Source: a bacterium (GTDB lineage: Bacteria; CSSED10-310; JAJRTK01). From it: DNA of 26,578 nucleotides. The stretch covers positions 1 to 26,578 of the forward strand of contig JAJRTK010000196.1 in NCBI GenBank assembly GCA_024278345.1, in the 5' to 3' direction. This document shows positions 50-6,149 of this stretch, in pieces (positions within the stretch are counted from its first letter, which is position 1; each line of letters begins with the position of its first letter). A model generated the notes under the pieces. That model did no database searches. It was not told where the DNA came from and saw only the letters and a program-made list of their open reading frames with translations. The translations under genes and the position numbers were made by a program.

Positions 50-57
50 GAACCTCC
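50..57. repeat. 8-bp direct repeat, left flank (candidate target-site duplication)
   Basis: GAACCTCC directly abuts the outer end of the left inverted-repeat arm that begins at 58. The same eight bases occur in the same orientation directly outside the right arm (259-266). Identical direct repeats exactly bounding perfect inverted repeats are what transposition leaves behind. Confidence 0.7.
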
Positions 58-258
58 GGCCTCGGTCATGGTACCGGCCACGGTTCAGATTTCAGACGCC
101 GCCCCGGGGCTTCCAGCCCTGGAACCCGGCGTAGGCTCCGCCTCCGGACCTCCGCTGGGAGCGCCGCTCCCAGACCCACGCCAGGGAGCCAGCTCCCTGG
201 ACCCACATCTTTGTGCGCTGCGCGCTTTTTTCGGGTGGCCGGTACCATGACCGAGGCC
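58..258. mobile_element. MITE-like element with 24-bp perfect terminal inverted repeats
   Basis: Bases 58-81 are the exact reverse complement of 235-258 (24 of 24; each arm contains the palindrome GGTACC), and pairing stops at 82/234. An 8-bp direct repeat flanks the pair. The 201-bp interior has no credible gene. It holds a run of hairpins: AGGC/GCCT (133-143), CTGGGAGC/GCTCCCAG (155-173) and CCAGGGAGC/GCTCCCTGG (181-200). The last two are each followed by ACCCAC. A GC-rich stretch and six Ts (226-231) precede the right arm. Too short for a transposase, it would have to be moved in trans. An 8-bp duplication is known for several IS families (for example IS6, ISL3 and IS66), but I cannot assign a parent. 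The remaining bases are unremarkable: 1-49 carry a small CCCAA/TTGGG hairpin (11-23), and 267-385 hold only the leader of the next gene. Confidence 0.7.
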
Positions 259-266
259 GAACCTCC
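259..266. repeat. 8-bp direct repeat, right flank (candidate target-site duplication)
   Basis: Second copy of GAACCTCC, immediately outside the right inverted-repeat arm. It matches 50-57 exactly and in the same orientation. Confidence 0.7.
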
Positions 267-5784: not shown

Positions 5785-6149
5785 GCATGGAGGCCTTCCG
5801 GCCTCCATGCTGGCGTGTACTTTCACGGTAAGCGGAACAGCTAGTGGCAACTTCAGATTCGCCGCATGAAGTTTGGGCCTGCCGGTGCTTCTGGCGGCGC
5901 CTTCGCGACGCTCGGCGGGCACACGCCTCGCGTTGCGCGGCGGTCGTTCGGGGACTCCGTCCCCAATCCCCTGGCAGGGCTTTGCCCTGCACCCACCAGG
6001 GAGCGAGCTCATCTTCCCGTTGCCACGAAGGGCAACGGGATCCCAGCCCATATTCATGTACGCCGCGCGGTTTCGCTTTTGTTGCAGCGGGTATCCCGCC
6101 TTGGGTGGATGACCCATCCCCTCATCGCGCTACCGGGCACCCGCGCCCG
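5785..6149. other. Hairpin-dense intergenic block (candidate structured RNA or decayed repeat element)
   Basis: This gene-free stretch contains at least seven perfectly paired stems in 365 bp. They are an 11-bp palindrome arm pair (5785-5795/5800-5810), GGGGAC/GTCCCC (5950-5964), GCAGGGC/GCCCTGC (5974-5990, followed by ACCCAC), CCCGTTGCC/GGCAACGGG (6016-6039), GCGGG/CCCGC (6087-6099), TGGGT/ACCCA (6102-6116) and CGGGC/GCCCG (6134-6149). CCAGGGAGCGAGCTC (5997-6011) matches CCAGGGAGCCAGCTC in the element near base 181 with one difference, so the two regions may belong to related repeat families. No terminal inverted repeats or protein signature were found. Open frames crossing it look like chance products of GC-rich DNA. 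Confidence 0.5.

Follow-up and report, generated by a model that had tools for sequence, protein, structure and literature searches.

The 201-bp sequence at positions 58–258 of the window is very probably a MITE on whose ends the transposase of an insertion sequence (IS) family encoding DUF6399 proteins (Pfam PF19936) acts in trans, binding and cutting them. The element itself is of an ordinary kind; the new part is its parent IS family, which is apparently undescribed, judged against a literature search, NCBIfam and plasmid annotation. The window (26,578 nucleotides) is the whole of contig C120 from a 6.06-Mb draft genome of 550 contigs (G000), and hence the left flank of the element consists of only 57 bases. 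The element and its flanks are organized as follows.

50–57: left target duplication, 8 bp, GAACCTCC (direct reading)
58–81, plus strand: left terminal inverted repeat, 24 bp, GGCCTCGGTCATGGTACCGGCCAC (direct reading, repeat search)
82–234, plus strand: non-coding interior, 153 bp, with short GC-rich hairpins (no transposase, no Rfam match)
155–173, plus strand: hairpin in the interior, CTGGGAGCGCCGCTCCCAG (predicted fold)
181–200, plus strand: hairpin in the interior, CCAGGGAGCCAGCTCCCTGG (predicted fold)
213–225, plus strand: terminator-like stem-loop and T run near the right end (consensus match only)
235–258, minus strand: right terminal inverted repeat, 24 bp, exact reverse complement of the left (direct reading, repeat search)
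259–266: right target duplication, 8 bp, GAACCTCC (direct reading)

An earlier note on this DNA had described perfect 24-bp inverted repeats spanning 201 bp and identical 8-bp flanks. Direct reading and a repeat search confirm the repeats, and GAACCTCC abuts them on both sides. The note also judged the flank match hard to obtain by chance; for a given pair, the chance of an 8-bp match abutting the repeats is ~1 in 65,536, and the same layout is found with other 8-mers at further copies. The interior (82–234) is non-coding and, as the note had it, holds no transposase gene; nor does it match Rfam. The gene placed downstream by the note, at 386–1699, encodes a serine hydrolase of the beta-lactamase family (PF00144, E 9e-60), and starts 127 bp from the right end of the element and 119 bp from the outer duplication. 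Could this arrangement be an artefact of assembly or chance, with a coincidental duplication? In favor of this, the element lies only 57 bases from the left edge of its contig, and the draft probably contains some joins between copies. Misassembly of this sort, however, would not yield identical 8-mers on the two sides, and the same architecture is found at numerous independent copies as well as on a finished plasmid. We therefore consider an artefact barely credible.

The element is dispersed through its host genome. BLASTN against that genome identified 40 scored copies, most of them 92–100% identical, and 20 aligned full-length copies have a mean pairwise identity of 96.5%. Within 3 mismatches, the 24-bp end matches 233 sites, whereas the reversed control has none. 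With a broader version of the end pattern, the count is 320; among 386 genomes, G003, a member of the same phylum but of another family, has 27, and every other genome has ≤2. In a sample of 60 contigs (0.55 Mb), chosen by number and not by content, there are 29 to 37 ends at ≤1 to ≤3 mismatches, which extrapolates to ~320–407 ends and roughly 160–200 insertions in the genome. Many contigs stop 85–141 bp inside a copy, which is the expected behavior of an assembler that meets a repeat longer than its word. Beyond the host, 60 relatives yielded no copy except hairpin-level chance matches, the nearest genomes compared being seven others that share only the phylum. A DNA search of plasmids and phages identified no copy, and the end pattern was not found in viral contigs.

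The earlier note looked to two signs of insertion: further copies with different 8-bp duplications, and uninterrupted sites. Both exist within the host genome, the former at many copies. Flanks could be read for 23 full-length copies; exact 8-bp duplications border 13 of them, and 9-bp duplications border two. Since two of these 23 records are views of one insertion, there are 22 distinct testable copies, 14 of which have a duplication (9 bp in two cases), and the target sequence is different at every site. The other 8 have none; most of these are close to the ends of contigs, places at which the assembler is likely to have joined different copies. The insertion at L078 lies inside another repeat that is uninterrupted at the paralogous loci L064 and L099. 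The empty site has the target once, with GGGCAACG intact in L099 and one base different in L064. In contig C507 (L113:12947–13688), a 249-bp variant of the window-type MITE interrupts the remnant of a transposase gene. When its two flanks are joined and one copy of GAAAGCGA is removed, the reading frame becomes continuous again, and the resulting protein is like residues ~57–144 of the Thiodictyon protein described below. Here, a window-type MITE has inserted into what remains of the transposase gene presumed to be that of its parent. The host also has older, diverged relatives of the element, with ends GGCCTTGGTCATCGTTTCGGCCAC or GGCCTCGTCCATCGTTTCGGCCAC and other interiors (L064:1205–1336, L079:3212–3413, L088, L142 and L113:8966–9165), and a duplication of 8 or 9 bp flanks some of them. 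These relatives suggest that the elements spread in several waves.

An alternative explanation for the abundance of these sequences is that they are dispersed structured repeats, REP/BIME-like or terminator-like, that have a regulatory or RNA function and spread without transposition. The whole element has a strong predicted fold (z = −8.5), with interior hairpins and a terminator-like site. Furthermore, non-coding positions are favored, with 10 of 37 ends adjoining ORFs ≥300 aa, compared with a background of 75%. However, the target duplications and the empty sites are signatures of transposition. Part of the folding signal comes from the end repeats themselves, such that the fold is largely a consequence of perfect inverted ends, and selection acting on insertions of any kind would be expected to deplete them in genes. 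Together, these observations largely refute a structured repeat as the origin of the element, and we give this explanation very little weight. Single copies may have acquired a later function.

What is the parent of the MITE? A complete IS of 1,916 bp is located on the finished plasmid pTs417 of Candidatus Thiodictyon syntrophicum (NZ_CP020371, 366.3–368.2 kb, locus L187). It has 24-bp ends, GGCCTTGATCATAAATCCGGCCAA and GGCCTTGATCATCGTTCCGGCCAC, an 8-bp duplication, GTCCAACC, and a single gene, for a 558-aa DUF6399 protein that is annotated only as “DUF6399 domain-containing protein”. The earlier note had suggested that a full-length IS sharing the 24-bp ends would name the parent. This IS has an 8-bp duplication and related ends, but not identical ones: 20 of 24 positions match the MITE ends at the right end and 17 of 24 at the other, and across all IS ends known so far the MITE ends are identical at 16–20 of 24 positions, with none exact. 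In the 403 kb of NZ_CP020371 that were read there are 27 end sites, compared with 0 in the control, and one IS remnant. Six MITEs of 124–178 bp are also present on this plasmid, each flanked by a duplication of 8 or 9 bp. In Thiodictyon, the IS and the MITEs thus share an end pattern and a duplication length, indicating that the arrangement recurs in a gammaproteobacterium. The complete DUF6399 IS is the likely parent type of the MITE.

In the host, DUF6399 sequences are found beside the ends as remnants. Contig C507 has an A-type DUF6399 N-terminal remnant directly inside the end GGCCTTGTTCATCGTTTGATCCAC, and contig C387 has a C-terminal A-type fragment of 179 aa. The host draft, from which repeats longer than the assembly word are lost, yielded fragments but no intact A-type DUF6399 gene, and the ~12% of the host genome that was read contained no intact IS bounded by terminal inverted repeats. 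G003 has 31 related ends. At two loci, L147 and L150, an end of this kind follows shortly after a coding sequence whose product is a protein tail with a match to PF19936 (2e-15); at L150, the DUF6399 stop codon is 8 bp from the end. The ends behind the stop are GGCCTCGTTCATCGTTTGGGCCAC or a one-base variant, further DUF6399 remnants adjoin ends elsewhere in G003, and there is a 127-bp MITE with the duplication GAGAAAAC. The layout that we propose for the DUF6399 IS family, a single gene with 24-bp ends and an 8-bp duplication, is represented by one complete element, in Thiodictyon, and is partial in G003 and the host. DUF6399 was detected in 3 of 386 genomes, namely the host, G003 and one whose copy resembles the other subtype; it was found in none of six other genomes of the phylum, none of 14 controls, and no viral contigs or phages. 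The window element has the features by which MITEs are recognized: it is short, has no transposase, and has terminal repeats, fixed-length duplications, dispersed copies and uninterrupted sites. Its autonomous counterpart is a DUF6399 IS of the same end pattern and duplication length in Thiodictyon, and is present in the host as remnants only.

It might instead be that another host transposase, with ends that resemble those of the DUF6399 IS by chance, moved the MITE. The host, where no intact A-type DUF6399 gene was found, has IS1595- and ISAs1-type fragments. The IS1595 and ISAs1 families are both known to give target duplications of about 8 bp. However, within the stretches read, no such end adjoins the IS1595 fragments or the ISAs1 fragment, and the link between the end and DUF6399 recurs in three unrelated genomes, one instance being a complete element with its own duplication. 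We consider a different transposase unlikely. Host searches for an IS1595 (PF12762) or DDE_Tnp_1 (PF01609) parent gave unrelated fragments only, without these ends in the stretches read, and both candidates were rejected.

We propose that the DUF6399 transposase would pair two 24-bp ends, cut, and join them to target strands 8 bp apart, and that the staggered cut at insertion would lead to duplication of 8 bp, sometimes 9 bp, of the target. The MITE would have only its ends in common with the parent IS, the interior being a set of small hairpins; retaining ends only, it would be movable only in trans. A DUF6399 protein probably moved the window element in this way. Pfam lists PF19936 as a family of unknown function. 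Three full-length DUF6399 proteins have invariant residues D147 (DET), D201 (SD), D221 (DLFH) and E474 (VEGRNG), as well as a weak N-terminal helix-turn-helix (HTH). From these four conserved acidic residues in three sequences, we infer that DUF6399 proteins are transposases of the DDE type. Searching PDB sequences gave no match. The best IS model in NCBIfam is IS3, whose score of 17 bits comes from the HTH alone and falls short of the cut-off of 160; we reject a recognized IS family with an NCBIfam model, since the DUF6399 protein passes none.

The host has a second DUF6399 subtype. On contig C188 (L175), ~12 bp past the stop codon of a DUF6399 gene of this subtype, there is an end that is the reverse complement of GGGTATTCACTTAAGGCGGGACAAA. 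Sites like GGGTATCCACGCAAGGCGGGACA number 72 in the 0.73 Mb of sequence that was read, compared with 0 in the control, and perhaps 360–540 ends of this kind are present genome-wide. These ends define a second MITE family, with six elements of 211–280 bp that have GGGTATCCACGCAAGGCGGGACA ends and 8-bp duplications.

L113:2035–2245: second-family MITE
L096:8882–9123: second-family MITE
L094:6953–7182: second-family MITE
L117:4075–4318: second-family MITE
L071:572–815: second-family MITE
L016:1000–1279: second-family MITE

Given the DUF6399 gene on L175 and the GGGTATCCACGCAAGGCGGGACA elements with duplications, both subtypes appear to have produced MITEs in the host. The window itself has a degraded second-family copy at 5960–6114, which is 86% similar over 122 bp and has a single minus-strand end, at 6114, with 3 mismatches. 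Further DUF6399 genes are found on plasmids of Acaryochloris (NZ_CP071718), Crinalium (NC_019737) and Methylomonas (CP157007); behind the Acaryochloris and Methylomonas genes there is an end of the GGCTTAAATT type, similar to that of the second subtype.

A group II intron (RF00029, 58 bits) is located at one exact point in at least 7 copies of the MITE, 2 bp after the hairpin CCAGGGAGC..GCTCCCTGG. The equivalent position in the window is 202|203, and the window copy is without the intron. Intron-bearing loci are as follows.

L145:7–85: group II intron match
L143:7–85: group II intron match
L137:3005–3083: group II intron match
L127:6–84: group II intron match
L067, about 5556 on: 5ʹ side of the intron (probable 5ʹ end assignment)
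L068: 5ʹ side of the intron (probable 5ʹ end assignment)

Further intron copies follow a similar short motif elsewhere. The pattern suggests that the MITEs serve the intron as dispersed homing sites. A broader proposal, to which we give even chances, is that DUF6399 represents an undescribed IS family of at least two subtypes (ends GGCCTYGGTCATSGT... and GGGTATCCACGCAAGGCGGGACA), that each subtype seeded hundreds of MITEs in the host genome, and that those MITEs serve as homing sites for the intron.

How do these elements compare with known systems? MITECca01 of Cardinium cOegib is a MITE of about 240 bp with 169 copies that derives from a co-resident IS (PMC9769881). It is similar to the window MITE in being bacterial and of high copy number, and is mostly intergenic or inside other mobile elements (PMC9769881). 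In contrast to the window MITE, which has another end type and duplication length and whose A-type parent is present as remnants, MITECca01 has an IS982-family parent with intact genomic copies (PMC9769881). MITEAba12 of Acinetobacter is likewise short and non-autonomous, has only its ends in common with an IS, and was assigned a parent from its ends and duplication length (PMC6382973). However, it has 16-bp ends, a 9-bp duplication and ISAba12 as its parent, and its movement has been observed (PMC6382973), whereas the window MITE is known from sequence alone. The Thiodictyon DUF6399 IS shares the 24-bp end pattern and the 8-bp duplication and has companion MITEs; it differs from the MITE in being autonomous and 1,916 bp long. 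The recently recognized IS1202 family, drawn out of ISNCY, resembles the DUF6399 IS in having imperfect ends of 24–26 bp and a large transposase (PMC10132070). IS1202 elements, however, have 5-bp duplications, ends beginning 5ʹ-TGT and a TnsB-like transposase of 441–457 aa (PMC10132070), whereas DUF6399 elements have 8-bp duplications and ends beginning 5ʹ-GG. Our literature search identified no paper mentioning DUF6399.

What is the significance of these elements? Our analysis suggests a likely function, transposition, for a Pfam family of unknown function and for proteins annotated as “DUF6399 domain-containing”, and it supplies the ends and duplication length needed for annotating the whole DUF6399 family. 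The host is a further example of a bacterium in which the MITE load is very high, with two families and an estimated several hundred insertions, and the two MITE families appear to break the draft assembly at many copies. If the broader proposal that includes the intron is true, three layers of mobile DNA are stacked in one bacterium.
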